Below, piece after piece: positions 12,113 through 37,300 of a stretch of DNA of 45,926 bases; the stretch's first letter is position 1; each line of letters opens with the position of its first letter. The DNA is from Deltaproteobacteria bacterium (GTDB lineage: Bacteria; Myxococcota; XYA12-FULL-58-9; JABJBS01): positions 1 through 45,926 of the forward strand of contig JABJBS010000302.1 of NCBI GenBank assembly GCA_018668695.1, written 5' to 3'. The translations under genes were made by a program, and so were the position numbers. The notes below the pieces were generated by a model that worked only from the letters and a program-made list of their open reading frames with translations, was not told where the DNA came from and ran no database searches.

Positions 12113-12646
12113 ATGTTTAGAATATATAAAAGCATTGACGTCGACTTTGCCCACCATATCCGTGGGCACAAGGGACACTGTATCAATATCCACGGACACA
12201 CTTGGAAGTTTGAGGTTGGCCTTCATGCGGCTGAGCTCGACAAAGAGGGGTTTGTCGTCGATTTCGCGGTATTGAAGCGTGAAATCCTCAAGCCTTGTCA
12301 CGATCTGCTCGACCATAGCCTCGCCATAGGCGAAGAGACTTGGAACGACATCGGTGGTTCACTGGAGCCAGTGGGTAAATTATTGCTGCAAAGTCGGATT
12401 CCCCTTCACAATACCGCAGACACCTGCGAGCGCGTGGTTACACGGCTTGGCGGTGCGGAGAATCGGTTCCCCGGTGGCATGAAAGTCACCGTGTTTCCGT
12501 TTAGTCCCACCAGCGAACGTATCGCTCAATGGCTATACAATGCAGCAGTTGACTCGATTGAAGATGAGCGCGTGAAAGTTACATTCGCTAGAATTTACGA
12601 AACGCTCCACCCAGTTGAAGCCGTTGCGGAATACCACCGCCCTTAG
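12113..12646 (+). CDS. QueD/6-pyruvoyl-tetrahydropterin synthase family protein with an insertion
   Basis: A 177-residue member of the QueD/PTPS family, which makes 6-carboxy-tetrahydropterin for queuosine or tetrahydrobiopterin-type pterins. Visible residues are the zinc ligand region FAHH (12-15), catalytic Cys 23 in the CxxxHGH motif (C23, H27, H29), Asp 67-His 68 (LLDHS), PTSE (132-135) and Glu 163 (YETLH). All the catalytic positions I know from E. coli QueD have counterparts. The usual length is about 120 residues; the excess is an insertion of about 50 residues between the DH pair and PTSE (roughly 72-128). No queC, queE or queF lies next door. Function as a QueD or a PTPS paralogue cannot be settled from sequence alone. 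Confidence 0.88.
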   Translation: MFRIYKSIDVDFAHHIRGHKGHCINIHGHTWKFEVGLHAAELDKEGFVVDFAVLKREILKPCHDLLDHSLAIGEETWNDIGGSLEPVGKLLLQSRIPLHNTADTCERVVTRLGGAENRFPGGMKVTVFPFSPTSERIAQWLYNAAVDSIEDERVKVTFARIYETLHPVEAVAEYHRP

Positions 12647-12708
12647 AGCTTGTTGGCCGACCGACCGTATGAAGCGCACCGATACATTGATAAACGCGTG
12701 AGTCACCC

Positions 12709-13335
12709 ATGGGTACCCGTTCTAAACGCAGCGACCGCTGCCCTGCTTGCCGTATGCACGTTGCCGACTGCCTCTGTGCTCTCATTCCAAAGCTCGACTT
12801 AGAGACCCGTGTTATCGTCGTAATGCATCACCGCGAATGGAGTAAACCAACCGCGACTGCGCCCCTTTTTTCCCTCGCTGCGCCGAATTCAGAAATTAGG
12901 TTACGTGGCCGGCAGGACCAGCCATTTTCCTCCGAAGGAATAGTGACTCACGAGCGCCGCACCCTTTTACTTTACCCAAGTGATGACGCAGAAATCTTAA
13001 CACCTGAACTGGTTAAACAAGATCCAAGACCCGTGACCCTGGTGGTTCCAGACGGCAGTTGGCGCCAAGCCGCAAAGTCTACGCAGCGCGAGCCCGTCCT
13101 AAAAGGTCTCAGCCGGGTAACCCTCCCCGATATGGGACCCACCCGGTATCGCTTGCGAAATGAGCCTAAGCCAGGTGGCCTTGGAACGTTCGAGGCCATT
13201 TCGCGAGCCCTCCGCATCCTTGAAGGCGAAGAAACATACTTGGCTCTCGATGCTTTGTTCAACACAATGGTTGAGCGTACCCTCACCACGCGTGGCCAAC
13301 CTACTACCGACAAAGGCACTATCGGTTCGGCCTAA
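12709..13335 (+). CDS. DTW-domain protein, probable tRNA-uridine aminocarboxypropyltransferase
   Basis: The 208-residue protein opens with a Cys cluster, CPAC and CLC (Cys 11, 14, 21, 23), that probably binds zinc. The family signature DxTW appears as DGSW (115-118) within LVVPDGSWRQA, and the downstream block YRLRNEPKPGGLGTFEAISRAL matches the conserved R-x-EP...LxTxEA region. Known DTW/TapT enzymes transfer the aminocarboxypropyl group of S-adenosylmethionine to uridine in the tRNA variable or D loop. The start ATG at 12709 has only a weak ribosome binding site (GTGAG). It sits among other RNA-modifying genes (the QueD-like gene upstream, the RluA-type gene downstream). Confidence 0.88.
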   Translation: MGTRSKRSDRCPACRMHVADCLCALIPKLDLETRVIVVMHHREWSKPTATAPLFSLAAPNSEIRLRGRQDQPFSSEGIVTHERRTLLLYPSDDAEILTPELVKQDPRPVTLVVPDGSWRQAAKSTQREPVLKGLSRVTLPDMGPTRYRLRNEPKPGGLGTFEAISRALRILEGEETYLALDALFNTMVERTLTTRGQPTTDKGTIGSA

Positions 13336-13633
13336 TTCGATAAAAACGCATTCATAACAGACGATTAAGTAGAGTTATCGCAACCCAAAAACGACCAGCC
13401 AAACCCGAAACCATGTAAATAAATCAAAAAACCATCTTGTCAGACGGTTTCCCATCCACTAGTAGGGGCACACTCGGGCCCGCTTATCGAAAGCCTGCCC
13501 CGACGCACAGCAGGACCTCCATCATGTGAGGCGCGCGTCGAAACACCAAATTTATCTTTCCTATCGCTGTTGTATGGGTTTGGACGTCAAAGGGCTTAAC
13601 AAGGCCCTACGGCGCTATAACCGGAGCCTTCCT
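13336..13633. promoter_or_regulatory. 298-bp leader region of the RhlE-like helicase gene
   Basis: A non-coding stretch with an imperfect hairpin (AAACCATC, 6-base loop, GACGGTTT) near 13430-13451 and a GGGCTT..AAGGCCC-type stem at about 13589-13606, ahead of the GGAG ribosome binding site at 13623-13626. It could be a structured 5' leader, as is common for cold-shock helicases. No promoter motif is convincing. Confidence 0.3.
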
Positions 13634-15196
13634 ATGTCTCAATCTCAAGAGCAGCCCGTCAACGGGTTCGCAAAATTCGACCTTCATCCTAACATCATGC
13701 GCGGAATTCAAAATGCTGGGTTTACTGAACCACGCCCAATCCAAGCAAAAACGCTGCCCGCGGCACTTGCTGGCGACGATATCCTCGGTCTTGCCCAAAC
13801 CGGCACAGGGAAAACAGCCGGCTTTGCTATTCCAATTCTCGAGCGGATTGCTCGAGACCCATGCGAAGGCCCAACAGCCCTGATTCTTGCGCCAACACGG
13901 GAACTTGCAGCGCAAATCGCTGACGAAATCCGAACACTCGCATCGTGTACACGTATCAAGGGGATCACTATCTACGGCGGCGTTGGACAACGCCCACAAG
14001 TAGCCGGTCTGCGTCAGCGACCCGACATCATTGTCGCTTGCCCTGGTCGCTTGCTGGATCTCATCGGCCAAGGCTTCGTAAAGCTCGGCCATGTCCAAAC
14101 ACTCGTCCTCGATGAAGCCGACCATATGTTCGACATGGGCTTCTTGGTCTCCATTCGAAAAATATTGAAACATCTTCCGCGAAAGCGCCAGAACCTGCTT
14201 TTCTCGGCCACCATGCCTAAGGAAATTCGTCACCTCGCAGATGAAATGCTTGACGACCCAACAGTTGTAGAACTTGAAAATAAGAAGCCAATCGATCTCA
14301 TCGAACAAGTTGTCTACCCCGTGCACCACCGGCGCAAAGTTCGCCTCACTGAGCATATCCTACGGACGGACGATGTAAGCCGAGCGATCATTTTCACTCG
14401 AACTAAAAGAGGTGCCAAGGCGCTTGCAGACAAACTGGACCGCGCCAACTTCAATGCCGCAGCACTCCAAGGAAACATGTCGCAAAATGCGAGAGAAAGG
14501 GTCATGCGCGGATTTAAATCAGGCAAGCTTGATATCCTCGTTGCGACCGATATCGCCGCCAGAGGTATCGATGTCTCGAAAGTGTCTCACGTAATCAACT
14601 ACGATGTGCCAGACACGCCAGAAGCCTACACGCATAGAATCGGTAGAACCGGGCGAGCAGAATGCACAGGCAAAGCCTGCACCTTCATCACATCAGAAGA
14701 CCGTTCGATGCTTCGCGCCATCGAGCGTCGTATCGACCAGGACATACCTCAAAACATTCTTGAAGAGTTCATTCATTGCGACGACCCCGATCCACGTAAT
14801 CGAGCCACCAAGCCGAGCAATTCAGGCAGACGAAGCCACAACCGCGGTAATTCGCGAGACCAGCGTAGTAATGCATCAGGTCGTGGGCAATCTTCAAAGC
14901 CAGCACGAAAGAGAAAGCCCGACGAAAACAATTCGGACCGGCCACGCTCGAACACAAACGGCAAACCTGCACGGGCAAACTCTGAAACATCAGCTGATGC
15001 GCCGAAGCGCCTTAAGCCAAAAGCAAAGGCACCTGCCAACCGAGATGGTGAACCACGGGCTCAAAAGGCAAAGCCGGCCAGAAATCCTAGACCGGGCAAC
15101 AAGCCGGCTGCAGGTGGCAACCGTCCTCCGAAAAAACGCAACAAACCAGGGCAATCAGCTTCGGTTGGCAACAGAAGAACTAGACCAAGCAGCTGA
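13634..15196 (+). CDS. RhlE-like DEAD-box RNA helicase with long basic tail
   Basis: I start at ATG 13634 (MSQSQEQPVNGFAKFDLHP), which has GGAG seven bases upstream; the frame is open 108 bases earlier, but that stretch has no helicase features. The product has 520 residues. Motifs: Q-motif FTEPRPIQ (30-37), Walker A AQTGTGKT (54-61), PTREL (87-91), GG and CPGR (137-140), DEAD (160-163), SAT, ATDIAARGID and HRIGRTGRA. After about residue 385 the protein becomes a disordered, very basic tail rich in Arg, Lys, Pro, Asn and Ser, ending NRRTRPSS. RhlE helicases act on ribosome assembly intermediates and mRNA decay. The ABC-F gene follows after 57 bp, suggesting co-transcription. Confidence 0.93.
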   Translation: MSQSQEQPVNGFAKFDLHPNIMRGIQNAGFTEPRPIQAKTLPAALAGDDILGLAQTGTGKTAGFAIPILERIARDPCEGPTALILAPTRELAAQIADEIRTLASCTRIKGITIYGGVGQRPQVAGLRQRPDIIVACPGRLLDLIGQGFVKLGHVQTLVLDEADHMFDMGFLVSIRKILKHLPRKRQNLLFSATMPKEIRHLADEMLDDPTVVELENKKPIDLIEQVVYPVHHRRKVRLTEHILRTDDVSRAIIFTRTKRGAKALADKLDRANFNAAALQGNMSQNARERVMRGFKSGKLDILVATDIAARGIDVSKVSHVINYDVPDTPEAYTHRIGRTGRAECTGKACTFITSEDRSMLRAIERRIDQDIPQNILEEFIHCDDPDPRNRATKPSNSGRRSHNRGNSRDQRSNASGRGQSSKPARKRKPDENNSDRPRSNTNGKPARANSETSADAPKRLKPKAKAPANRDGEPRAQKAKPARNPRPGNKPAAGGNRPPKKRNKPGQSASVGNRRTRPSS

Positions 15197-15253
15197 GACC
15201 AGCGCTTTGGTTCATGAAACTTAATAAGTTCTAAACAGGACGAGGATAGACAA

Positions 15254-16864
15254 ATGATTCAGACCGATGGCTTAACACTTTCGTTCGCCGGTAGAACCCT
15301 CTTTGAAAACGTAAATATCAAGTTCACGCCTGGTAACTCATATGGGCTTATCGGTGCCAACGGTGCCGGTAAATCGACCTTTTTAAGATGTCTATCTGGC
15401 GAGCAAGAATCAAGCGGCGGAAGTGTTTCCATTCCCAAAGGTCTACGTTTGAGCATGCTCAGGCAGAACCATTTTGAGTACAATGAAGTCAAAGTTCTGG
15501 ATACCGTGATCCAAGGCCACAGCCGCTTATGGAACGTGATGCAAGAAAAGGACGCGATTTACGCGAAGCCTGACTTCAATGATGACGACGGCATGAAGGC
15601 AGCCGAACTCGAGTCTGAGTTTGCTGACATGAACGGGTGGGAAGCAGAAGCGATGGCTGGGCAGCTCCTAGCAAACCTAGGAATCACAACTGCGCAGCAA
15701 GAGTTACTTGTTCAAGACCTGGAAGACAGCGAAAAAGTTCGTGTTTTGTTGGCACAGGCTTTATTCGGTGACCCTGACGTACTGCTACTCGATGAGCCTA
15801 CAAACCACCTCGACGTGGACTCCATCCTGTGGCTTGAAGACTTCCTACTAAATTTCAAGAACACGGTGGTTGTGGTTTCTCACGACAGACACTTTCTTGA
15901 TAAAGTTTGTACGCACATTGCCGATATCGATTTTCAGAAAGTCACACTTTTCACCGGAAACTATGCATTCTGGTATCAGACAAGTCAGATGGCCCTTACT
16001 CAGCGCCAAGACTCAAACAAGAAAAAAGAAGACAAGATGAAGGAACTAAAATCTTTCATCGCGCGCTTTAGCGCCAACGCCTCGAAGTCCAAACAAGCTA
16101 CAAGCAGAAAAGCGTTGCTGGATAAAATCTCACTCGACGACATCAAACCGTCATCAAGGAAGTACCCCTACATCGTATTCAAACCTGAACGCGATCTTGG
16201 CAAAGAGGTTCTCTTTGTAGAGCATCTTACCAAGACCGTAGATGGTGAAGTGTTATTCAAAGACCTTCATTTGAATATCGGCAAGGGTGAGCGAGTCGCA
16301 TTTGTTGGACCAGATCATGCAGTCACCGCCTTGATGGATATCTTGGCGGGCGAAGCGCAAGCTGACTCCGGTGAACTTCGATGGGGCCATTCTACGAACC
16401 GCGGTTACCTGCCGAAAGACCATGACACCTTCTTTAATACCGACGACAACTTGGTAAATTGGATTCGCCAATTTTCAGAGCAAAAGGAAGAAAACTTTGT
16501 TCGAAGCTTTCTTGGCCGAATGCTCTTTAGCGGTGAAGACGTTCTCAAGTGTGCAAATGTATTATCGGGCGGAGAAAAGATGCGCTGCATGTTAGCGCGA
16601 ATCATGCTCCGTGACCCTAACGTTGTGCTGCTTGACAGCCCCACCAACCACCTCGACCTTGAATCAATCACGGCACTCAACAATGCCCTGACACAATTTC
16701 AGGGCACCCTACTCTTTACATCCCATGATGTGGAATTCGTAAACACGCTGGCAACCCGAGTGGTTGAACTCGACGGCACACACTTCCATGATCTGCACAA
16801 AGGGTTTGAAGAGTACCTGGCTGATGAAGCTCGCCAAGAGCGCGCTGGTATCCAGGCAAGATAA
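15254..16864 (+). CDS. ABC-F family ATPase, YbiT-like, with a degenerate second ATP site
   Basis: The 536-residue protein has two ABC domains joined by a basic linker (about 250-305; SARFSANASKSKQATSRK-type region), the layout of ribosome-associated ABC-F factors. The fold order and linker resemble E. coli YbiT. NBD1 has a good Walker A, GANGAGKST (34-42), and Walker B with catalytic Glu, LLLDEPTNHLD (177-187), but its signature is lost (VQDLEDSEK at 153-161 where LSGGE is expected). NBD2 keeps the signature LSGGE (437-441), but its Walker A is GPDHAVTA (352-359), lacking the Gly-Lys-Ser/Thr core. Its Walker B is DSPTNHLD, with Ser 462 in place of the catalytic Glu. The switch region is SHDVEF, not SHDREF. 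ABC-F proteins act on the ribosomal E site. The RluA-type gene overlaps its stop by one base. Confidence 0.92.
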   Translation: MIQTDGLTLSFAGRTLFENVNIKFTPGNSYGLIGANGAGKSTFLRCLSGEQESSGGSVSIPKGLRLSMLRQNHFEYNEVKVLDTVIQGHSRLWNVMQEKDAIYAKPDFNDDDGMKAAELESEFADMNGWEAEAMAGQLLANLGITTAQQELLVQDLEDSEKVRVLLAQALFGDPDVLLLDEPTNHLDVDSILWLEDFLLNFKNTVVVVSHDRHFLDKVCTHIADIDFQKVTLFTGNYAFWYQTSQMALTQRQDSNKKKEDKMKELKSFIARFSANASKSKQATSRKALLDKISLDDIKPSSRKYPYIVFKPERDLGKEVLFVEHLTKTVDGEVLFKDLHLNIGKGERVAFVGPDHAVTALMDILAGEAQADSGELRWGHSTNRGYLPKDHDTFFNTDDNLVNWIRQFSEQKEENFVRSFLGRMLFSGEDVLKCANVLSGGEKMRCMLARIMLRDPNVVLLDSPTNHLDLESITALNNALTQFQGTLLFTSHDVEFVNTLATRVVELDGTHFHDLHKGFEEYLADEARQERAGIQAR

Positions 16865-17847
16865 TGGAAGACGCCATTCAAAGTGAGCCGGATCCTCAAG
16901 TTGTTTTGCGACAAGTCCTCAAGGATTTAGGTCTTAGCAATGCTGAAATCAAGCAGGCTGGAGCCACCGGCAAAGTGTTGGTTCGTGGCGTTCCTACCGC
17001 CGACGCTGGACGAATGGTTTATCCTGACGAAGTTCAATATATTCCTGATGCACGCAAATTAACGCCCGGCCGTGACATCGTCATACTGCATCGTGATTAC
17101 AATATAGCGGTGGTCAACAAACCCAGTGGCTGGCTAAGCGTGAAAGCCAACAATCAGAAGAACAAAACAGATGTGGTTAGCTTTATCGGCAAAGTCTGTG
17201 ACGACTCCTATGCGGTGCACCGACTTGACCAAGAAACATCTGGTGTGATGATGGTTGCACTGGACGAAGACAGCCAGTACCGCATCAAAGAGCTTTTTGA
17301 AGTTCATGATATTGAAAGACGTTATCTTGCCATTGTGCAAGGCCGCCCAGGAAGAAACAGCTGGACTGTTGAAAGCAATCTGGTCCGAAACCGCGGCGAC
17401 GGTAAACGAGGAACCGGTGATAGCGAAGACGGAAAACGTGCAGTCACCCACTTCAAGATTATTCAGCGCCTGCGAGGAGCAACCCTCGTGGAAGCCACAC
17501 TGGAAACAGGGCGTACCCACCAGGTTAGAATTCATTTAGCAGAAGCAGGGCACCCAGTCCTCGGTGATAAGCTCTACGGTAATGCCGGATCTTCAAGAAG
17601 ACTACCCAGAGTTGCTCTTCATGCTGCTGTCCTCGGGTTCGACCATCCAAGCACCCAGTTAAAAATGCGATTCGATGTGCCTCTGGCCGACGACATGGAG
17701 AAGCTTCGTAGAGAACTCACTCGCCCTGAGTCGAACGGTCCTCGATTTCAAGCGGGAGCAGATGGCGCGGAAGGCCCAACAAGAGCTGGACCGACTCGCC
17801 CACCCAAGAATAAGAAGAAGACCAAAAAAGCGAGAAAAAAGCGCTAG
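16864..17847 (+). CDS. RluA-family RNA pseudouridine synthase
   Basis: A 327-residue enzyme that converts uridine to pseudouridine in rRNA or tRNA. Residues 10-60 look like a small S4-type RNA-binding domain. The catalytic motif is VHRLDQETSGVMM (118-130), with the nucleophile Asp 122. Further family marks are VVNKPSGWLSV (83-93) and TGRTHQVRIHL with GHPVLGDKLYG. The last 20 residues are a Lys/Arg tail (KNKKKTKKARKKR) that should add RNA affinity. The ATG at 16864 shares one base with the TAA of the ABC-F gene, so the two are translationally coupled. The stop codon overlaps the stop of the convergent protease gene by four bases. The RNA target is not predictable. Confidence 0.93.
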   Translation: MEDAIQSEPDPQVVLRQVLKDLGLSNAEIKQAGATGKVLVRGVPTADAGRMVYPDEVQYIPDARKLTPGRDIVILHRDYNIAVVNKPSGWLSVKANNQKNKTDVVSFIGKVCDDSYAVHRLDQETSGVMMVALDEDSQYRIKELFEVHDIERRYLAIVQGRPGRNSWTVESNLVRNRGDGKRGTGDSEDGKRAVTHFKIIQRLRGATLVEATLETGRTHQVRIHLAEAGHPVLGDKLYGNAGSSRRLPRVALHAAVLGFDHPSTQLKMRFDVPLADDMEKLRRELTRPESNGPRFQAGADGAEGPTRAGPTRPPKNKKKTKKARKKR

Positions 17848-20354
17848 TGCCGAACTGGCGCCAGACCCATTTTCGGCATTCGTCTTCTTAACCAGAGCCC
17901 AGACAATAGCAGTAACATCCAAGGCTGAGACTGAGTAGAAGAGCACCCTTCACCTTCAGCCGCCATACCTTCATCTCCTGTGCCGATTACTCCATCATCA
18001 CCCATTTCTGAGCTGGCCTCACCGTCGTTGCCAGCCGACTGAGTATCATCAATTTCGCCGCTCTCATTATCAGACGGATTAGACTGGTTAGGATCGCTCT
18101 CGGAGCTATTCTCATCTACCGGGGGCTCACCTACAATGGGTGGTTGCTGTTCTCCACAGAGCCCATACTCATTGCAGCTCTCCCCTTCCGGGCAGCCCGC
18201 ATACTCACAAGACTGCCAACAGACTCCATCATTTTCATCGATGGGATAACAGGAATAGCCCTCGCGGCAATCAGCGTTGTAAAGACAATCATCTAAGCAC
18301 AGATTGACGCTGCCCATATCAATGCAGCTGTCGTTCTCGCCGCATGGGTCCGAGTCACAAACATCACCGCAAAATCCGCCATGTAGGTCGTATGTATTTT
18401 CGTCGTAACAGGAATTACCATCGGCGCAATCTGAATTATTTAAACAAGCCGCTCCGGCCGGTCCAGCATTACCATTCACGCAATCGCCCGAATATTCGTC
18501 GCAGACATATCCTTCTGCACACCCAGAAACCGTGCAAGACGGCACGCATCCAGTTTGTCCTGCTTCCAAATCAAGGCAGTCGTAGCCGTCACGACAATCA
18601 CTGGTTTGCGAACATCCATCATAACAAATGGATGTGTCACCACCAACGTCGACACAGATATCTCCCGAAGGGCAGGATGCGCTGCAGTAAGTTGTGCAAT
18701 ACCCGCCAGGGTAATCATATTGAGACTGTGTGATACAAAAACCATTACTTGGACATTCATTATCGGCCAAACAAGGTGCTCCAACTAGGCCGGCATCCGG
18801 CGCGCAGTCGGAGTCGTTTTCATCAACCTGTCCGTCGCAATCATCATCGGTACCATTCCCGCAATCTTCAGGGGATGGAACGCAAGGGTTGGTTCCCGCT
18901 GCTAACTGGATAGCGGTGTACGCATTGATTCGGCCATTCCCATAGTAAGGGCTGAAGCCGTCCGAATATGACACATTACCAACTTTATCTGCTGACCCAT
19001 TCATAATCTGAAACACGTCGGCACGGCTAAGACCTGGGTTTAAGCCAAGCACAAGGCCAACGACGCCAGCGGCAACCGGGCACGCTGCACTTGTACCGCC
19101 AAAACTATAGCTATAATCATTGTTGCTGTATCCGTTGTATCCACCAATATCCGTCGTTACCGAACCGGCTGGCGCGACGAAGTCGAGTTCCCAACCGAAA
19201 TTTGAATAATCTTCTTTGCTACCATTGCTACCCGTTGCTCCTACTCCCAGCACCAACGGATGGCTGGCCAGTTCATAACTGTAGTTCTCCCGGTACTCAT
19301 TACCGGCAGCAAACATAACAATCGCACCCAAACCACCACGTCCATTTTGAGCAGCATATTGGATTGCCTCTTCCATATTGGGTTGAACTTCAGTGGCCTG
19401 CCCTGCGCCCCAGCTATTTGAAAGAACATGAGCGCCTTTATCAACTGCCCATACAAATGCATCAACATCGGCGCCATAACGGCCCCAACCTTGCTCGCCC
19501 ATAATACGAATGGGAATGATGGAGCAGTTGGGACAAACGCCTGCTATACCCTCACCATTGTCGGTCTGAGCCGCTGCCAAGCCCGCACACGCTGTACCAT
19601 GCGCATCGTTGCCATCGGGATTTGGGTTATAATCTTGGTCCAATGCATCGTAGGGTTCTACGAGCTTTCCGTAGAGATCCGGATGGTCGAGATCCACACC
19701 GGAATCAATAATTGCGATTCGAATACCAGCGTTACCCTGCTCCGAGTTCCAGGCGCCTTGCACCGAGATCTGGTCAAGGTGCCACTGGTATCCTTCAAGT
19801 TCATCGTTCGGATTAAACATGCGCGATTTTTTGTAGATAAAATCAGGATGCGCAAAACGCACCTGCCCTGACTCCACCAAACGGTTCGCCACTTCAAGCA
19901 CTTGGGCCGGGTCTTTAACTTGCACATCGTACCAACCCAAGGTTGGGTGAGTTGCCTTAACTGAAGCGCCTCCGAGGGCCTGGACAGTCGTTTCTATGGT
20001 CGCGAGAGGACGTTGAGGATCAAAACCGGCATTCACCCTGCCATCCGATACGTAAATATCGTCGAACCCGGGTCTCCGAAATACGGTGAGCTGAGCCATC
20101 TTGTGCAGTGTTGTCATTTTAACGAGCCACTGTGCATCCGCGATAGCTTCGCGCTTGATGAGGTAATCGTTCCGATAGATGCGCTCGGCGTTTACGTTTC
20201 GAAGCATGCGTAGGACCGCGCCCTCGGGCTCTCCGTCAAGACTGCGCAAGACGACGGTATCCCGGACAGAGACGAGTTCAACCTCACCGACCGTGCTGTG
20301 ATAATAATTTGGCGAGGACGCGAGAAAGAGCGTTAAAACCAAAGAACTGAGCAT
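17844..20354 (-). CDS. Secreted subtilisin-like (S8) serine protease with Cys-rich repeats and MYXO-CTERM-like tail
   Basis: The 836-residue protein starts at 20352-20354 with AGAGG upstream and has a short signal peptide (MLSSLVLTLFLASS). Residues 115-175 look like an inhibitor-type propeptide. The S8 domain (about 185-485) has the full triad: Asp 217 (IAIIDSGVDLDHPD), His 252 (DAHGTACAG) and Ser 422 (SFGGTSAACPVAAG), plus oxyanion Asn 352. Next comes a CGNGTDDDCDGQVDENDSDC motif (498-517), of the MopE-like putative metal-binding kind. Five or so Cys-rich modules follow (CxxDSDCxxGxxCxD pattern), then a Ser/Asp/Glu-rich linker and a C-terminal GC-hydrophobic-RRR tail (about 803-826). In Myxococcota that tail directs processing and surface anchoring. 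An extra 11 residues follow the Arg cluster, which is longer than usual. Confidence 0.92.
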   Translation of the reverse strand: MLSSLVLTLFLASSPNYYHSTVGEVELVSVRDTVVLRSLDGEPEGAVLRMLRNVNAERIYRNDYLIKREAIADAQWLVKMTTLHKMAQLTVFRRPGFDDIYVSDGRVNAGFDPQRPLATIETTVQALGGASVKATHPTLGWYDVQVKDPAQVLEVANRLVESGQVRFAHPDFIYKKSRMFNPNDELEGYQWHLDQISVQGAWNSEQGNAGIRIAIIDSGVDLDHPDLYGKLVEPYDALDQDYNPNPDGNDAHGTACAGLAAAQTDNGEGIAGVCPNCSIIPIRIMGEQGWGRYGADVDAFVWAVDKGAHVLSNSWGAGQATEVQPNMEEAIQYAAQNGRGGLGAIVMFAAGNEYRENYSYELASHPLVLGVGATGSNGSKEDYSNFGWELDFVAPAGSVTTDIGGYNGYSNNDYSYSFGGTSAACPVAAGVVGLVLGLNPGLSRADVFQIMNGSADKVGNVSYSDGFSPYYGNGRINAYTAIQLAAGTNPCVPSPEDCGNGTDDDCDGQVDENDSDCAPDAGLVGAPCLADNECPSNGFCITQSQYDYPGGYCTTYCSASCPSGDICVDVGGDTSICYDGCSQTSDCRDGYDCLDLEAGQTGCVPSCTVSGCAEGYVCDEYSGDCVNGNAGPAGAACLNNSDCADGNSCYDENTYDLHGGFCGDVCDSDPCGENDSCIDMGSVNLCLDDCLYNADCREGYSCYPIDENDGVCWQSCEYAGCPEGESCNEYGLCGEQQPPIVGEPPVDENSSESDPNQSNPSDNESGEIDDTQSAGNDGEASSEMGDDGVIGTGDEGMAAEGEGCSSTQSQPWMLLLLSGLWLRRRMPKMGLAPVRH

Positions 20355-26557: not shown

Positions 26558-28327
26558 ATGAATATTGTATTTTCCTTATGTTTAGCCGTGATCACGGCTT
26601 CTCCCATGATGACTGTGGAAAGCGCGAAGAGCATTCCAGGCGGGACTGCGGGAACCACAGCGCACCTTACTCAGAAGACCGCCCCTGTATCGTTCACGGT
26701 CACCGGCCCCACGTACATCATCGCTAAAATACGCGCCTCAAAAGAGACACCAAAATCCAAACCACAACGCGTGGTCATTCTGCGCGACAACCAATTCCAG
26801 TCAGCTTATTCACTGGCGATGGTTGGCCGCCGGGTAGCGCCCAAGGGCTTCAGCTACGGCGGTGAGATAGGTCTAGAAATTCCAGCTGGCTCCCACACCT
26901 ACTCCATACAGTCAGAGGGTGTTAGCGTGGCGGTCATTCTATCGACAGCCAAGAAGTTGCCCCGTCGCCTTGTAAACAAAGTCCAAGAGAAAGACCTCGG
27001 TATCGCCCAACCCGCTAGCAGCGTTCCGGTAGCCAAGCCTACGCCGCCCGCTCCTAAAGCCGCCACGGCCCCAACTCCTCCAACTCCTTTATTGAGCAAG
27101 AAAGCAGAACCTACCGAGCAGAAAAGAATTCTCATTATGGATGTGGCCGCGGTGGGTATAGACCCATCACTGGCAAAGCAGGTCACCACAGCCATCGCTG
27201 AAACCATGTCGGGCCGAGCTGGAATTGAAGCCGTCACCACAGATGAACTCACCAACATCGCCGACACAGAAGCCATCAAACAAAGCACGGGCTGTGACGC
27301 CGATACGGCCTGCATGGCCGAGATCTCTTCCTGGGCCAATACAGAACTCGTCGTAAACGGCACAATCGGACAGGTTGGCGATGCGGTTACTCTTACGCTT
27401 ACCCTTGTCGATAGCAAAAAGGCTTCCGTCGAGAACCGAGTAAGCCGAGCTGTCATTGTGGAAGCAGACGACATCCTCGCCGTTACCAAGCAACTTGTTG
27501 AAGAACTCTTTGGTTGGGAAGGCGCTGGCAATAAAATCACTTACCGAATCGCTGAAGGCAAAGCCGTTAGCTTTGCAGTATTTGACCTAAGCACCGCTGG
27601 TCTCTCTGAAGATGCTGCACGCAACCTCACGCAAGTTCTATCGGTGGAACTGAAACGCATTCAGGGCGCGAGCGTGATCGGAAAAGAAGACATCGCGGCC
27701 ATGCTTAATCTAGAAGGCCAAAAACAAGTGTTGGGCTGTGAAAGCGACACCTCCTGCTTAGCCGAAATTGGTGGTGCACTGGGCGTTGATAAACTCGTTG
27801 TTGGCCAAGTGGGCAAGCTTGCCGACAATTTCATCATCTCTCTGCGTTTAATATCTCCCACAACAGCAAAGGTAGACAATCGTATCAGCGAAAATTTTGT
27901 CGGGACTGAAGCCACACTCATCCCCGCCATTCGGACCGCCGGACGCAAGCTGTTGGGTATCGAATCGAAAGAGCCTGGAAGCCTTGGTGTGAGTTCCTCC
28001 GAACCTGCTGCTGCGGTATTCTTAGACGGCAAGGACCAAGGCATCCTACCCATGCCGCCCATTACCGACCTAGAGCCAGGGCGTTACAACCTAAGAGTTC
28101 TCAAAGAGGGTTACTTTGCTTGGAACGGTGATGTTTACGTCAACCCAATGGACAACACGGCGATGTGGATAGAACTGAAAGCCAAACCAGAGAAGTGGTA
28201 CAAGCAATGGTGGGTATGGACGAGCGTTGGTGCCGTCGCCGCCGGTGTAGCCACCACGCTGGCTATCACCATGAAGGCTACCCCTACTGTGGGCTCAGGA
28301 TCTGCAACCATCAAAGCGGGTCAGTGA
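26558..28327 (+). CDS. Envelope protein with two CsgG/TolB-like domains, PEGA domain and C-terminal membrane helix
   Basis: I start at ATG 26558 (MNIVFSLCLAVITASPMMTV), which gives a signal peptide; the open frame 90 bases upstream has none. The protein has 589 residues. A beta-rich N-terminal segment (about 42-150) leads to a Pro-rich linker. Two homologous alpha/beta domains follow, about 189-330 and 335-468, each with a GC-x3-DT-x-CxAEI block followed by LVVxGxxGxxxD, as in CsgG-like/FlgO-like proteins of Myxococcota. A PEGA-type domain (about 474-540; VFLDGKDQG...GRYNLRVLKEGY) and one C-terminal helix (551-571) end the protein. Such proteins sense or assemble envelope structures; the exact role is unknown. 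Its TGA overlaps an ATG of the giant lipoprotein gene (28325-28329). Confidence 0.85.
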   Translation: MNIVFSLCLAVITASPMMTVESAKSIPGGTAGTTAHLTQKTAPVSFTVTGPTYIIAKIRASKETPKSKPQRVVILRDNQFQSAYSLAMVGRRVAPKGFSYGGEIGLEIPAGSHTYSIQSEGVSVAVILSTAKKLPRRLVNKVQEKDLGIAQPASSVPVAKPTPPAPKAATAPTPPTPLLSKKAEPTEQKRILIMDVAAVGIDPSLAKQVTTAIAETMSGRAGIEAVTTDELTNIADTEAIKQSTGCDADTACMAEISSWANTELVVNGTIGQVGDAVTLTLTLVDSKKASVENRVSRAVIVEADDILAVTKQLVEELFGWEGAGNKITYRIAEGKAVSFAVFDLSTAGLSEDAARNLTQVLSVELKRIQGASVIGKEDIAAMLNLEGQKQVLGCESDTSCLAEIGGALGVDKLVVGQVGKLADNFIISLRLISPTTAKVDNRISENFVGTEATLIPAIRTAGRKLLGIESKEPGSLGVSSSEPAAAVFLDGKDQGILPMPPITDLEPGRYNLRVLKEGYFAWNGDVYVNPMDNTAMWIELKAKPEKWYKQWWVWTSVGAVAAGVATTLAITMKATPTVGSGSATIKAGQ

Positions 28328-28362
28328 TGATGAATCGATTTCAAAATGACGGAGATGAATCT

Positions 28363-31300
28363 ATGCATTCTTGCATCTTCAAATACACTATTCTGATACT
28401 CACCCTTGCGTCAGTCGTTTTTCTAAGTGGCTGTGAAGCACAAAATGCGGGCAGTTCATTCGCCATTCAGTTCACCTTCCCGGATGACCAGTGGCCCGAG
28501 GGAACTCTGTGGCTCTCCGGACGCGTTGAGGAGCGAACAGACATTCAAGAAAGCGGCGCAGTCCTATCTGTTGCCTCGCCAGTTTTACTGGAGCCTGGCG
28601 CGACACTCGCGTTCTCCTCCATCGAATTTGGCCGTAACCGCGTCGTTGTAGCAGAAATCAGGTCCACGGAATCGAGCAGTGGTCGTACGTTATACTACGG
28701 TGTTTCAGACCAATTCGATTTCAATGCTGGTGACAGCATTGTGGTCGAAGTCCCATTTGGGTTGAATGCAACTCCTGACGCAGAAACCACCAATACCACC
28801 GGCGACCCGACCGGAACACCTTCAAACAATTCAGCCTCATCGATGACTATTGGAGACAACAACGAAGTTAATCCCGAGGCAGTGGGTACGACCGACGTGA
28901 TGCTTTACGTGACCACCACGAAGGCGAGCAAATTGATTGTCTCAAACGACCCAGCTTTTTCTACTAACAATACATCTCAAATTGATTTTGAAAGCGACGA
29001 GCCAAGCTCTGAAGCTCAGACCACTCGTTCTTACCAGTTACCTTGGAGCCTCCAAGGTTGCGCCAGCGCCAACAGCGTCTGCTCCCAAACCGTCTATGTG
29101 ATGTTCGAGGATAGCTTCGGCTATTCCTCCGCAGCTATTTCAGACAGCGTCCTGCTCGACACGGAGGCGCCAAAAGTGATTCCGTCCGGCACCGAAGTTG
29201 ATCCGAGTTCCATCAAAGCAAACGTCCGGGGCCTGTTTCGATTATCGGTCGATGAACCACTGACGGGCCTAACAAAGAGCGACGACTCAACAAACGACAC
29301 CAGCAGCCTAGAGTTTATCGTTAGGCGTGATGGCGTGCTTATCGAAGAGCCTCTTTTCCAACTTATAGATGTATCCAACGGAGAAGACGGCGGTATCTGG
29401 GAGACCATCACACCCGGCGGACAGGGCTCCCTTACCAGCGGCGACTATGTCATTCACGCCAACCTCGTCGATAAAGTTGGCAATATTCTATCAACCGAGG
29501 CCATTGGCGAGCCTCTGGCGGAGTTCAGTGTTGATGCCCAAGATCCTGAGATAAGCAGCCCAAGCCTTCTCGTCAACGGAAGCGAAGATAAGAGAAATGT
29601 TAAACTTGGCGACACCATCGAGCTGAGCTTCACCGCTTCGGAAACAATCGTTGGTGAGCCCGAAGTCTATATTGGTACAGTCCCGATGATACAGGAACCC
29701 ACCGAAGACCTCTCCTATCTTTATCGGTATACGCCGGAGTTTGGTGCAGAAGACTCGGGCACCGATACTCTCGTTGATGGTATTTATATTGTATCAGTTC
29801 GACTCGTCGATGAGGCTAGCAACGTTGGTATTACAAACCTAACCGACAACGCGCTCACGTTCGACGTTGTGCCGCCCAACGTTATCGAGAGCAGCGCCTA
29901 CCCACCGGCAGCCAACCAAGCCTCATCTCTCACCTACCAAGTGTTTCTAACCGAAGCCGTTAGCAGCATCACGCTTACCGCCACCCATGCCTCAGCTGGC
30001 GAAAACGCTGTCATCGAGTTCAACACACCGACCAGCACGGGCAATGTCTACACATTTGAGCCACAGCAAGCACTGAGCACTGAACTTGAAGGTGTGTACT
30101 ACCCGACACTCATGCTTGAGGATTTGGCAGGAAACACCAATACATTTGTTTATGACCCAAGTATCGACTCAAACAGCCTTGCCTCCTTCACTCTTGATAG
30201 CACCAACCCAACTGTCTCAAATTGGTCACTGACTTCCACCAACGAAGCCGTGAATACCCGATGCGGCGTCGACGAAACAGGTACCCGTGTTGGGGCGGCA
30301 CAAGGTGATGAAATTTCACTTTCCTTCGAAGCGACCGACACTGTGCAGGGCGGCATTGCGGAAGTTGTCGTAAAACTAGGTAACGAAACCATCAACTGCA
30401 ATGCCTCTGGCAGCGTTTACACATGCGATGCAACCATCACAAGCGAGACCTTCCCCGACGGACTGAGTGATTTTAATATCGTGGTTTCAGACACCGCAGG
30501 CAACGTAGTCTCGCAAGACTATGGAAGCGTATGTGTCGACACCACCGCGGCTAATATTGTTACGAGCAACGTCTACCCCGAAAAGGCAAATAGAGAATCA
30601 GAGTTACGCTACCAGGTTTTCCTGACCGAAGAAGTTTTAGACGTCACATTAACCGCCGCACATGAATCTGATGGGTCATCACTTCTCTTTTTAGTCGAAG
30701 AACAAACATCCAGCAGTGTCCACACTTTTATTCTCAACAGCGAAGATGAAAGCGCAGGCAATCTAACCCCTCTTCAATTGGCTACTGAAGGCGTTTATCA
30801 CCCCAGCCTTACCATCATCGATCTCGCTGGCAATAGTGTCGTCCATGCCTTCAACCCAGATAGCCTCGACAACACTCTTGTTCCGATTGAACTAGACAGC
30901 ACTGCGCCCGTGATTTCGGATGTAGCTGTCGAGACCACAAATTCAGGTTTGGGATCCACATGTGGCGAAGACCTCTCAGGGTTGAGAGTCGGTGCTGCCT
31001 CAGGAGACCAAGTAACTCTTACATTTACCGGTACAGATCTCGAAAGCGGCGGAATCGCTGAGAGCCCAGTGGTCACCCTCGGAAACCAAATCATCGGTTG
31101 TACTCTATTAGGTCACGACTATACCTGCCCGAGCACTCTAACAAGTGACTTTTTATCCGATGGTTTAAACACCTTTGAGATAATCCTGACCGACAGCGCG
31201 GGTAATATTGCCTCAGACACGTCGGCATCTGTTTGCGTAGATACGACATCTCCTGCTCTAACCGCTGCTACGGTTTACCCTGAATATGCCAACCAAACCT

Positions 31301-34300
31301 CGACCATCACATACCAAGTATTCGTTACTGAACCGGCAGCGGAGATTAGCCTTTCAGCCAATCATGAATTGAGTGGCGATTCACTTATTTTTCCGACCCC
31401 GACACAAACGGGTAACGTATACACTTTCACACTCGACGGAACCGAGGCAGCCGGCGAAGCCAGTCTGCTCTTCAACGCTCTCGAAGGCACGTATCAACCC
31501 AGCCTCACCATGACAGATCAGGCGGGAAACCAAACGGTACTCGTCTATGACTCCAATGGTTCAGAGAATACCTTGGTGTCTTTTCAACTTGATAGTACGA
31601 GACCAATCATCAGCAACCTTGAGCTGAATTCAAACAACGACCCTGGGGATGTAAGTGACTGCGGCAGCACTAACTCCGCAACAGCCGCAGTTGCAGCCGA
31701 CGGTGATACCGTTACGCTTGAATTCGACGCCACTGATACGGATAGCAGTGGAATCTTCGACACACCCAAAGTGACCATCGGAGACCAGTCGATGGAGTGC
31801 TCTGCAAACGGCGACCGGTACACATGTTCGTTAACAGTGAGCGCCGAAAAGTTTACAGATGGCTCGAAAACCTTCGACATCACCGTCACCGATGCCGCCG
31901 GCAACTCTGTATTTCAGGAGTTCGGCACAGTCTGCATCGATACGACGAGCCCTATTGTGATTAGTAGTTCGTCATCCCCTTCCCCTGCACCCCTGGGAAG
32001 GACCGTTTATTACACGCTGCGTTTGGCCGAGACCAACCTGGGTATCCCCACCCTAACGACCTCACCATTGTTGGACCTGGGTCAACCAAGCCAGGACAGC
32101 AATCTCTTCACCTGGACCTATCAAACTCCGACTACGGATTCAGGACTAACCGACGAACAACTTCGCGACCTCGAACAGTCTTATACCGTGACCGCGTCGC
32201 TTTCGGATCTATCAGGTAACACGGCCACCGTGACCACGAGCGCCATTGAGCTGGACACCAAGATGCCAGCCTTCAGTAACATTCAGGTAGAAAGCAATAA
32301 CACGCTTCGACCCGGCCCAATTACCAGCGAGGAGGAACAAGCCGTCCTTGCCAAAAATGGAGACCTCGTCACCGTAACTTTCGACGCAACAGATACAGAC
32401 AGCTCCGGTGTTGCTGAAGTCACCGCTTCGCTCGCAGGCATTTCGATGACACTGGTCAGCTCAAACGACGACACTTTTGTGTTTAGTCATACGGTATCGA
32501 ACGGTGAATTACCTGACGGAGAAGCACTGCTTCAGTTTACAGCCACCGACGTCGCCGGTAACCGAAAGTACTGGACCAATAATAACTGGGTCATGATTGA
32601 CTCTACCTTGCCAACCGCTCAGACGAGTGTTCAACCGGCACCGGCCAAGATAGGCAGCAACATCGTATACCAAGCTGTGTTTAGTGAAGCAGTTACGGGC
32701 ACAACTATCACCGCCACACACAGCAATGGCATCGACACACTTGAACTGATTCAAGACGTAGCCGCATCATCTGGAAACCTATACGTTTGGAAGCACACCG
32801 TAGAAACAAGCACCGCCCTGCCGGACGGCTCCACATCTGGTTCTATAGAGGGAACCTACAGTGTGCTGCTCCAAGCTACCGACCAAGCCGGTAATGCCAG
32901 CAGCACAATCGTAGGTGAGTCTATTCAGATTGATAGCAGCTACCCTTCTGCAGAACTCGTGGGTGATATTACGACGACCCAAGTGGCCGGCGCCTCAATC
33001 ACTGCTCCCGACAAAGTAACCATCAACGGACAACCGTATGACCATGTTATCTATCAACATTCAATCACGGCAATCATTGAATTAAGCGACCAGACTGCCG
33101 ACACCTTACCCAAGCCCGAGGTCACCATTGGCGGCGTCCCAATCGTCTCCTTAGTGCTCGACGGGAATAATAGATGGGAGGCGACATATGATGTAACCGC
33201 TGACCTTGGAGATGGCCTAGCCGATATACAGGCTACTGTTCGCGACTTAGCCGGAAACGAAAAAGTTTACACCATTGCTACCGTGTTCGTCGACCAGACG
33301 GCTCCTTCCCTGGCTTTCCTAACGACAAGCCCCGAGATAGTCAGAAATGGAGGGACGGCCACCGTCATTCTTAACTTTGATGAGTTGGTCCGAGAAAACA
33401 TCAATCTATTCTATCAAAGCGACGACGGAACAACAGATTTGCTGAACGGCTCGACCGAGTCATGCGAAATAAATTCTTCTACATCGGCAACTGCGCTGGG
33501 TGCGACCAACCTAGCCGATTTAGTTCTAGGAAGTTCCTTTGTTTGTACCATTACCACCCCATTCGTTGACGGTACCCCTGACAGCCTTTACGCCTCCAGC
33601 TACGCGCTCGAAGTCTATGCTGAGGATTTCGCGGGTAACGCACGAACTTTCTCTACAACTGAGGTTGACGTGGCGCTTCGCTTTGACCAAACCGCTGCTC
33701 AGCTTGAAATAAGTGAACTCAGTACCGGCAGAATGACAAGCCATACAAACGAGTTCGAAAGATTCAAAACAGTCAATCGAGGAGACCGTGACGCGGTTTC
33801 TGGTGTAGCATCCGAAGTCACGTTTAAGATTAACTCTACAGAGCCGCTTAATACGCTCTCAGCGTTTATCGGGGACTACGAGCTAAGCCAAGCCGACTGC
33901 GGTAACACAGAAACTTCACCAGACGGTGGAACCATCATCACCTGTACATATACGCTCACCGGGCTAGAAGAAGACGGTTATCAGCGCCTCAAAGTCAACG
34001 CCACAGATCCGGCAGGTAACATCACCACAATCACCGGCGATATAGACAACCCGGAAAGCTGTGTACTCTTTGACTTCACACCACCAACAATATCTTACAG
34101 CAGTGTGTCACCCGAGCTTATCCCAGGAAACGGTACCGGGATGCTGACGGCGATATTCTCGGAACCGATACAAGACCTAGCCTACGAACTCCAGATCAAA
34201 ACCGGAGAGGAGTGGGCAGCGTCCACTGAAGCGTCCATCACGACCAACCTAACCCCAACAGATGACGGCTTGATGGCTCGATATAGAATCATCGTAGGCG

Positions 34301-37300
34301 GCGGCACCCTGGCGAATCGGCGACACCAAGCACAGGCCACAGGCCATGACTTAAGCGGAAACGAATTTAGCCAAACCATTAATGACATCTTCACCATTGA
34401 TCAAGTTGCGCCCGACCTCTGCGCACATACCGACACATGCTCACCCAAGTACCAAGTTGGCACATGGGAAGACGACGCGATCACACGTTACTTTGTAAAT
34501 TTGAACGATAAGCAAACTGGAGCTTCGATTGCCGTTGTCTTCGGGGTCACCGAATCGCTTGGTTCTAATCCAACCGTCACCATAGGCTCACGCCCATTCG
34601 GCAGTAACTGCGAAATCGTCCCCAACCCGAGCACTGTAGTCTACCGTTGCCTTTACCAGATGAGTGGAAACGAAACTTCCGGTCACAAAGAAATCGTTGT
34701 TAAGGCGGTAGACGATGCCGGCAATACAACCTACAGATCCCTCGGAGATTTCCTTTTCGACTTCGACAGTCCCACTTTCATCGCTCCCATCATATCATAC
34801 GAGCCGCCAACCAATGCTCCCGTTAGCCGAGTCACGGCCTTATCGAATGGCTCAAAGGCCAACCTTACGTTTAGCACGGACCAGTTGACGAGGCTCTCGA
34901 ACATCCAGCTAACTTGTGGTGCCAACACCTACTCATTGGGAGAGAGTACAGAAGACGGTAACTCGTTTCAGTATGAGGTCGCCTTCAATCATTTAGCTCC
35001 AAGCCCTGCAGATGGAGTCTGCCAAGCCCAAGCATCACTCAGCGACCTCATGTGGATTAAACCACCAGCGAACGGCGACGGCCCGGACTACATGATGAGT
35101 CTCCCCGCCGATGCGGCTGCATATACCCTCACTCAAATTGGGAATACTGGTGAATCGTTGTCGGAAGAGATTCTCATAGACAATACCGCCCCAACACTTA
35201 GTACGATTATTAGCACCTCAAACCTTAAGCACCTACGCATGCCGAATGGCGCATTGCAGGCGAGTCTGAGAGATGGTGATGGCTATGTGAGTTCGCAATA
35301 CATCGTGGATAGTAGCTTAGATGACCTTTCCGCCGCTCCTGCGAGCACGCTACCCATTGCCTACTTTGATATGGGGGAAGGCAATGGCACCGGCCCGGCT
35401 GATGGCACAGCTTCATGTTCCGAGAATGATGACTGCGGCGGAACGTCGATGTGTAACTATCAAAGCGGCCTATGCATCACCGCACGACTCTTGCGATTTT
35501 ATAACCAGGACTCAACGGGTACTGGTGCCAATCAAGGCACACTCCTAGGCAGTATCGACTTCCTGGCCTACGACGACAGCGGATCAGTATCTTCAGTGAA
35601 TCTGTCGACAGACAGTCCGGAGGTTTGGGTTGAAGCTGTTGATACCGCGGGGAATATCTCGAGCCGTCAAGCCCTAACGACCGAGTGGGTCGTTTCGCTT
35701 AGTGGGCGCACGAGCCTTAATGGCTCAGTACACCCAGCAACGGGCCAGCAGGTGTCAGCAGGCTTAGCATCTCGGGCACAGGGCTACGCAGACGACATCG
35801 ACGAAAGCCACGGCCTTGGCACAGTAGGTGATGACACCCTTCAAACCGCGGGGTATCAAACGTGGCAAGACCTAACGCTTAGACCCGGGACCGAGCTCCC
35901 GAGTAACCTCATGGCACCGGGCCTGGTTTACGACCAAGGGCGTCACAAGGTGATTTTGTTTTCAGGTGAAAACTCAAATCTCCAGGATAATCAGTTCTGG
36001 GAATACGACGTCGATACGAAGAGGTGGTCCAGTCAGCAGAGCCCTCTAGCTCCCACTGGGCGATCCGGTGCCATGCTTGTTTACGATAGTATTCGAGAAG
36101 TCTTGGTCTTTTTTGGAGGAACTACAAACTCGAATGTGAATGACGTAGAAGCCTTCTACGCGGACACTTGGGAGTACACCCTCTCTAAGTCGACCTGGAC
36201 CAAGATTATACCTACAACGGCACCCTCCGCACGGGCATTGAGCTTCGCAGAATTTGATGAGTCCTCGGGCAGAGTCATTCTCTTTGGCGGCGTTACGACA
36301 AAAGAGGACCAGAGCGACAACATCTCGCTCAATGACACCTGGGCATACGACACATCGACGCAAGACTGGACACAGCTAACGACCGACACCGCTCCTTCGC
36401 CTCGCCATGCGGGTACCATGCGCATCAATCCTAGTACGAAAAAAATGTTTCTTTTTGGAGGTGAGACAAAGGCCGGCGACGGTACTACAACTATCACCTT
36501 CCAAGATGACTTGTGGATTTTTGACCCCCAAACCACAAACCGGGAAGAAGTTTCTCAAACAAATACTCCCGGGGCGGTCGGCAGTTTCGGTATGGTTTAT
36601 AACTCTGAGCGCGAACGGTTGGTTCTATTTGGTGGTCGCACAGGTTTTGGATCGATGACCGCCACGGGCCCAAGCTCGATTGTGAGGGATCAGCAATGGG
36701 AGTTCAATCCAGCGTCTAATACTTGGCAACAGGTCGCAGCCGAGGGCAGTCCCACTGGTAAATGTTCATTCGGGATGGTCTACGTTCCCTCCTCCAAAGA
36801 AATTATCACTTATGGTGGTCAGTCTCTAGCTACGGTACTTGGTGAAACCACCGACTATAAAGCAGCCACGAATCGCTGGGTCCAACGGGCCACGACCGCC
36901 AATGTTCCACCATCCGATAGACGTGGAAACGCGATGGTTGAAATAACCAACACCAATGATTTGTTTCTCTTCGGCGGCTACACTTGGGATATTCCTCTTG
37001 TAGACGGCGTGCCAGATCCGGATTCACCTGAACTTGTCATGCTTAATGAAACATGGACATTCGCTGGGGAAAACCTGCGATGGACAGAGGTTGATTTGCC
37101 TTCGGGAGGCCCCGGCCCAATTGCAGATCATCAAATGGTCTACACACAAAGGGCCGACCCTCTCGACAATCGCGTTATCCTTTTCGGTGGACGTACCACT
37201 GTACCTCCAGAGGCAGGCTCAGAAAATGGCGGGCCTTTTGGTCAAGGCTACCAGGGAAGCACCTGGGCTTATAACCCAGCTGAAATCGCGTCCGAAAGAT

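Follow-up and report, generated by a model that had tools for sequence, protein, structure and literature searches.

An ABC-F gene in the window, by which we mean the whole stretch of 45,926 nucleotides analyzed here, probably encodes a one-ATP protein of the YkpA branch in which the second ATP site serves as a nucleotide-free scaffold. The domain make-up of the protein and its place in the tree make it an ABC-F, but it is without the two-site pattern, and its motifs indicate that it probably runs on a single ATP. According to the alignment and the tree, the P-loop of the second ABC domain was lost once and stayed lost in a large bacterial branch that includes the YkpA of the B. subtilis group.

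The gene is an open reading frame on the plus strand (15254-16864) that codes for 536 amino acids, ends in a TAA stop and is of the YbiT/YkpA type. A Pfam search found tandem ABC domains (PF00005, two stretches; here NBD1 and NBD2) and the ABC_tran_Xtn linker PF12848 at residues 224-307, with 68.5 bits over a cut-off of 25.9. The Pfam matches consist of ABC_tran, ABC_tran_Xtn and generic P-loop families only, and no transmembrane family is among them. The best curated model is NF011646/PRK15064 at 665.1 bits, which does not reach the YbiT-subfamily cut-off of that model (762 bits), a cut-off that was passed in 0 of the 58 genomes of the phylum sample. The closest solved structure is E. coli YbiT (9njf), the AlphaFold fold matches ABC-F chains in a Foldseek search, and in the tree the protein groups with E. 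coli YbiT in a clade of 71 rows (SH-aLRT 98) apart from the other ABC-Fs. From what is reported for YkpA and YbiT we infer that it binds the ribosomal E site and has a role in translation. The same genome also carries a canonical YbiT-like paralogue (G000:C298, 41 % identity) in which both Walker A motifs are strict, so the job of the one-site copy may differ from that of YkpA.

Reading the motifs in place assigns every lost element to one composite ATP site and leaves the other complete. The intact site is made of the NBD1 Walker A GANGAGKST (residues 34-42, 15353-15379), the Q-loop Gln71 (15464-15466), the Walker B LLLDE with the catalytic Glu181 (15782-15796) and the H-loop His210 of SHDRHF (15881-15883), and it is completed as an active site by the NBD2 signature LSGGE (residues 437-441, 16562-16576). 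It is the equivalent of NBS-I of mycobacterial EttA (MtbEttA). The lost site, made of the NBD2 Walker motifs and the NBD1 signature, corresponds to NBS-II, which in MtbEttA is the site whose Q-loop lies in NBD2 (PMC8782954). Its NBD1 signature is degenerate and reads LEDSEK (residues 156-161, 15719-15736). On the NBD2 side the A-loop (residues 327-331, 16232-16246) has no aromatic residue, the former Walker A reads GPDHAVTA (residues 352-359, 16307-16330) in a region, VGPDHAVTAL, that is one residue short of the canonical motif, Lys388 replaces the Q-loop Gln (16415-16417), and Ser462 replaces the catalytic Glu in the Walker B VLLDS (16625-16639). The NBD2 H-loop reads SHDVEF, with His491 (16724-16726) kept and the Arg after it changed to Val. 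Between the two domains lies the interdomain linker, or P-site tRNA interaction motif (PF12848; residues 236-318, 15959-16207), with the segment RFSANASKSKQATSR, to which RFSANASKSRQATSR corresponds in the alignment with E. coli YbiT. A preliminary description of this DNA had reported an NBD1 with intact Walker A and B but no LSGGE, and an NBD2 with GPDHAVTA, Ser462, SHDV and an intact LSGGE, and had placed all losses in one composite site with the other complete. The residues bear this out one by one (GANGAGKST, LLLDE and LEDSE in NBD1), the counts given below show one site complete and the strict NBD2 Walker A absent in 153 of 153 proteins, and the missing NBD2 A-loop aromatic and Lys388 add two losses to the same site.

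The extent to which relatives share this pattern was read from an alignment of 250 distinct sequences, identical ones counted once, with 158 members of the clade of the window protein, 50 other YbiT-like proteins and 42 other ABC-Fs. Clade membership was decided by bit score against the window protein (P0001; above 595) before any motif was counted, and the counts refer to 153 members because five partial rows (L253, L256, L275, L277 and L280) were omitted, though they are in the clade. All 153 have the complete first site, that is the NBD1 Walker A, Q-loop Gln, Walker B Asp-Glu and His together with the NBD2 SGGE. The NBD1 A-loop aromatic is missing in 14 of 154 clade rows (the window protein being entered twice) and in 6 of the 42 other ABC-Fs. 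By comparison, the strict motif GxxGxGK[ST] was found in the NBD2 of none of the 153 and the general form GxxxxGK[ST] in that of one (L181). The NBD2 A-loop aromatic is lost in 141 members, compared with 0 of 50 other YbiT-like proteins and 3 of 42 other ABC-Fs, and the NBD2 Q-loop Gln, which all 50 other YbiT-like proteins have, is lost in 146; across the 153 members this position has Lys in 95, Asn in 18, Leu in 13 and Gln in 7. In NBD1 the [ST]GG of the signature is missing from 150 members, compared with 17 of the 50 other YbiT-like proteins.

Other elements of the lost site persist in part of the clade. Of the 153 members, 151 keep the Asp of the NBD2 Walker B and 110 the Glu, which is absent in 43; the H-loop His is absent in 34. 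The Walker A Lys position still holds Lys in 70 members and is followed by Thr in 131, and just before it Gly has become Ala in 125. A Gly-to-Ala change just before the P-loop Lys is a classic nucleotide-free mutation in small GTPases. In the comparison groups, the other YbiT-like proteins have GxxxxGK[ST] in NBD2 in 50 of 50 cases (40 strict, 10 with the middle Gly changed to Ala), and not one has lost the NBD2 A-loop aromatic, Gln, Glu or His, while the 42 other ABC-Fs all have a strict NBD2 Walker A and have lost the Gln, Glu, His or signature in no case. The single exception within the clade, L181 (G100), is the only complete member with GxxxxGK[ST] in NBD2 (GPNSIGKTML); in the tree it sits inside the clade beside L105, and it is thus either a partial return or a late survivor.

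Searches of other kinds gave the same picture. The nearest homologues have 62 % identity (same order) and 55 and 54 % (same phylum), and all three are without the NBD2 P-loop and the NBD2 Glu. A genome scan with an alignment of four sequences, the window protein and these three, returned 532 loci, and the best 80, from Bacillota, Bacteroidota, Spirochaetota, Desulfobacterota, Chloroflexota and others, all combine a normal Walker A in NBD1 with a degenerate one in NBD2. The two peptide patterns used in the scan both fall within NBD1, one of them being its Walker A, so that the intact NBD1 Walker A of the 80 loci is partly there by construction, whereas NBD2 was unselected. Among 73 clade members from pattern-free searches, the strict NBD2 motif occurs in 0 and the first site is complete in 73. 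A sample of PF12848 matches from eight genomes, drawn independently of the window protein, comprised 30 loci with sequence and 13 further matches without a locus; 22 non-clade loci have two canonical Walker A motifs and 8 clade loci have one, a sample that is silent on frequency since all eight genomes were already known to hold one clade member each. According to the preliminary description, an intact NBD2 Walker A in close homologues would speak against it; neither the nearest three nor any of the 153 has a strict P-loop. It had further named conservation of GPDHAVTA-type motifs and the Ser across species as support. The absence of the P-loop is conserved, the strict motif lacking in 153 of 153, but the exact letters and the Ser are not. 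Conservation of the pattern across phyla rules out chance or error.

With the columns of the second-site motifs masked, the one-site proteins are monophyletic with support of 100/100 (40 of 56 rows, careful search). A 90-row tree agrees on the one-site clade (SH-aLRT 100, branch length 0.71), which there adjoins E. coli YbiT and the canonical L273 and L274 from the Spirochaetota sample; the outgroup of this tree consists of six other ABC-Fs with long branches, for which the tool issued a warning. The NBD2 Walker A state changes once on the tree, compared with at least nine changes of state for the NBD2 Glu on the 90-row tree (six on the 56-row tree) and at least ten for the NBD2 Walker A Lys on the 90-row tree. 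The likely order of events, as these counts suggest, is a weakening of the NBD1 signature in YbiT ancestors, followed by the loss of the P-loop, A-loop and Q-loop Gln and then by scattered losses of the Glu and His. The window protein itself stands with its same-order relative L002, apart from the five other members from its own phylum, and the phylum may have received the gene more than once.

Sequence comparison within the clade indicates that purifying selection acts on NBD2. Of 39 clade pairs, 24 had unsaturated dS, though some of their dS values are high; in these pairs omega for NBD2 ranges from 0.017 to 0.202, with similar values for NBD1. None of the pairs includes the window protein, which is without a close relative among the sequences compared. 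AlphaFold models were compared for the window protein (mean pLDDT 87.3) and for L035 from Bacillus marasmi (88.8). In both, the NBD1 Walker A region is a loop followed by a helix from residue 39-40, whereas in NBD2 the helix starts at residue 354 or 355 and a helical turn replaces the P-loop, in a block with a pLDDT of 90-91. Even in L035, which keeps the Lys and the Thr, the NBD2 helix begins three residues before the Lys position. The models are apo, with no ligand, and in them the helical turn is predicted to occupy the place where phosphate would bind.

A studied protein that appears to share this arrangement is YkpA. The YkpA of B. velezensis (WP_104843312.1, locus L318) is 60 % identical to the window protein over 533 residues and was identified by its neighbours ykpC and mreBH, a locus order that we take to be that of B. 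subtilis ykpA. Like the window protein it has an intact NBD1 and an intact NBD2 signature LSGGE, together with a degenerate NBD2 Walker A (GRNELAVTT), a degenerate NBD1 signature (LGGSE) and YFPKDN in the Q-loop region. It differs in keeping the NBD2 Glu (LDEPTN), which is Ser in the window protein, in reading SHDHQF instead of SHDVEF, and in that its former P-loop is without the one-residue deletion of the window protein. Based on the B. velezensis sequence, YkpA of the B. subtilis group appears to be of the one-site kind, with the NBD2 Glu retained. In a 2019 study, Murina et al. (PMC6723617) equated B. subtilis YkpA with YbiT, and deletion of ykpA in B. subtilis has been reported to cause mild stalling on charged motifs, namely on Lys and Glu stretches and, for Arg, the strongest among the strains (PMC11381351). 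The B. velezensis motifs and this deletion phenotype together suggest that a one-site ABC-F is functional in cells.

YbiT, by contrast, retains its second P-loop. E. coli YbiT (9njf; b0820) is 46 % identical to the window protein over 524 residues, with the same domain order and linker, and shares a weak NBD1 signature, VAPGW, but unlike the window protein it has a normal NBD2 with GTNGVGKST, the Q-loop Gln and the catalytic Glu (MDE). The preliminary description, which had attributed a weak NBD1 signature and normal NBD2 Walker motifs to YbiT, was thus correct for the K-12 protein. EttA, Uup, YheS and the antibiotic-resistance ABC-Fs have the same ABC-F architecture (matches from Foldseek and VIA-align) but two consensus sites, as the strict NBD2 Walker A in 42 of 42 sampled proteins illustrates.

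By our preferred reading, the one-ATP protein with a scaffold at its second site, ATP at the intact site (NBS-I) alone would close both domains, and the closed protein would occupy the ribosomal E site, its linker lying at the end of the P-site tRNA. Hydrolysis by Glu181 would then release it from the ribosome, while the lost site (NBS-II) would hold no nucleotide and serve as a fixed scaffold or hinge. In MtbEttA a bend in PtIM alpha1 moves the H-switch of NBS-I (PMC8782954). The H-loop of the retained site directly precedes the tRNA-contacting linker in the window protein, and the coupling to tRNA would therefore be kept. By analogy with Bacillus YkpA, the role may be to help ribosomes through difficult, charged stretches. 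Two observations temper this picture. First, the Lys in 70 and the Thr in 131 of the 153 members, together with the GxxxxGK[ST] of L181, mean that some members might bind nucleotide weakly at NBD2. Second, the retention of the NBD2 Glu in 110 and the Asp in 151 counts against a wholly dead site, since such a site would not need them for catalysis. It is possible, though less likely than not, that the branch runs on one ATP per cycle with its second pocket rebuilt into a nucleotide-free lock, in which the motif Y-x-P-K-[DE] faces the Walker B Asp.

A different way to account for the retained residues is that the NBD2 site still binds ATP without hydrolyzing it, as a permanent glue of the kind proposed for many ABC exporters, a proposal for which there is indirect evidence in the degenerate exporter sites (PMC7756269). 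These exporters do resemble the window protein in having one composite site complete and the losses of two domains confined to the other (PMC7756269), and the Walker B Asp (151 of 153), the Thr after the Walker A Lys position (131) and the Lys itself (70) are in keeping with a bound ATP. However, the order of losses in the clade is the reverse of that in exporters. The listed changes in human degenerate sites are in the signature and the Walker B Glu, with the only Walker A change being Lys to Arg in ABCG5/G8 (PMC7756269), whereas the clade has lost the strict Walker A, the A-loop aromatic and the Q-loop Gln in 153, 141 and 146 of 153 members and keeps the NBD2 Glu in 110, and the window protein has lost its P-loop altogether. 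The degenerate site of full-length human exporters is moreover the opposite one, NBS1, where the NBD2 signature is affected (PMC7756269), and exporters are membrane transporters, while the window protein has no transmembrane domain in Pfam. With the NBD2 P-loop filled by a helix in the AlphaFold models and the Walker A Lys missing from both the window protein and the B. velezensis YkpA, we regard a permanently bound ATP as improbable.

We judge it similarly improbable that the lost site is a re-purposed pocket in which the Q-loop, turned into Y-x-P-K-[DE], either forms a salt bridge that locks the Walker B Asp or serves to bind some other ligand. This would be a variant of the one-ATP reading and is compatible with it, with NBD2 sensing something other than ATP. 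Conservation of at least 90 % for Tyr385 and Pro387 in a 41-sequence alignment is in keeping with such a pocket, as are the Lys at position 388 in 95 and the Walker B Asp in 151 of the 153 members, but Lys388 is not universal, its place being taken by Asn (18), Leu (13) or Gln (7). Finally, a decaying or mis-sequenced gene copy, which the canonical paralogue could have made dispensable, is rejected on conservation, tree and selection within the clade as having virtually no chance of being correct, since all 153 complete relatives, drawn from several phyla, have lost the same site, with one origin at 100/100, NBD2 omega being at most 0.202 (in pairs without the window protein), and the open reading frame being intact with all motifs of the first site present.

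The two-site scheme is the rule against which the one-ATP reading has to be set. According to a 2024 paper, both ABC domains of an ABC-F have consensus Walker motifs and the protein binds two ATPs; in EQ2, the standard trap, the two catalytic glutamates are mutated (PMC11282234). The window protein, with GPDHAVTA and Ser462 in NBD2, departs from this rule in its motifs. In the literature searched, which left preprints and most subscription papers outside, we found no mention of a lost Walker A in YkpA or any ABC-F, and the available portions of PMC11381351, PMC6723617, PMC8782954, PMC6389857, PMC7756269, PMC8196190 and PMC11282234 hold no such statement. Nor did the papers searched yield any experiment on ATP binding, ATPase activity or ribosome structure for a member of the clade. 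A one-site ABC-F, which the preliminary description had called unusual, is indeed so among characterised ABC-Fs, but within a large natural branch of single origin it is the norm. If the one-ATP reading is right, the two-ATP scheme is not required for ABC-F binding to and release from the ribosome, and a natural branch with one dead site can tell which ATP serves binding and leaving. A single NBD1 Glu-to-Gln change is predicted to suffice to trap YkpA-type proteins, and because B. subtilis YkpA appears to be one-site and its deletion has a reported phenotype, the two-site question can be put to the test in a laboratory strain.

The one-site branch spans at least six phyla by our sequence searches. 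Full or nearly full-length clade members were found in at least 7 of 195 genomes of the window's phylum, 24 of 101 in Bacillota, 22 of 80 in Bacteroidota, 7 of 79 in Desulfobacterota (plus 2 partial), 17 of 60 in Spirochaetota (plus 2 genomes with partial ones) and 1 of 61 in Chloroflexota; each sample includes a centre genome chosen for having the gene, and these figures are rough. Fourteen genomes searched by locus have one clade member each, with no second full-length match above 34 % identity among the matches listed. A tblastn search also found relatives in plasmid records (50 at E 1e-120) and in phage records (28 at E 1e-60). Two phage-labelled records, a human faecal 'Bacteriophage sp.' and Enterococcus phage Efs 1-1-1, have relatives at 55-58 % identity that may be host DNA.

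In the window the ABC-F gene is the fourth of five same-strand genes in a row (12113-17847, plus strand), mostly linked to RNA, which encode in order a 6-pyruvoyl tetrahydropterin synthase-like protein (PF01242), a DTW protein (PF03942), a DEAD-box RNA helicase, the ABC-F and an RluA-type RNA pseudouridine synthase. The helicase gene (13526-15196, plus strand; PF00270 and PF00271) lies 57 bases before the ABC-F start. Of the 153 clade loci, 5 have a DEAD-box helicase gene upstream in the same orientation (the window, L052, L067, L103 and L188, among which are Desulfobulbaceae, Ardenticatenaceae and Treponema), and 3 have one in another orientation; the 50 other YbiT-like loci have it upstream in none and downstream in one. 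The ATG of the RluA-type gene (16864-17847, plus strand; PF00849) overlaps the ABC-F stop in TAATG (16862-16866). An RluA neighbour was found at 1 of 153 clade loci, the window itself, with flanks of 1.5 to 4 kb. Among six own-phylum relatives (L281-L286) for which longer stretches were read, an RluA-type gene occurs in two, at distances of 1.6 and 3.7 kb. The neighbourhood was considered as a clue to function and set aside. Further along, the minus strand encodes a subtilisin-family protease (17844-20354; PF00082) whose C-terminal half is rich in Cys and whose C-terminus, hydrophobic and rich in Arg, by eye resembles a sorting tail, and the plus strand has an open reading frame of 3404 amino acids (28165-38379).
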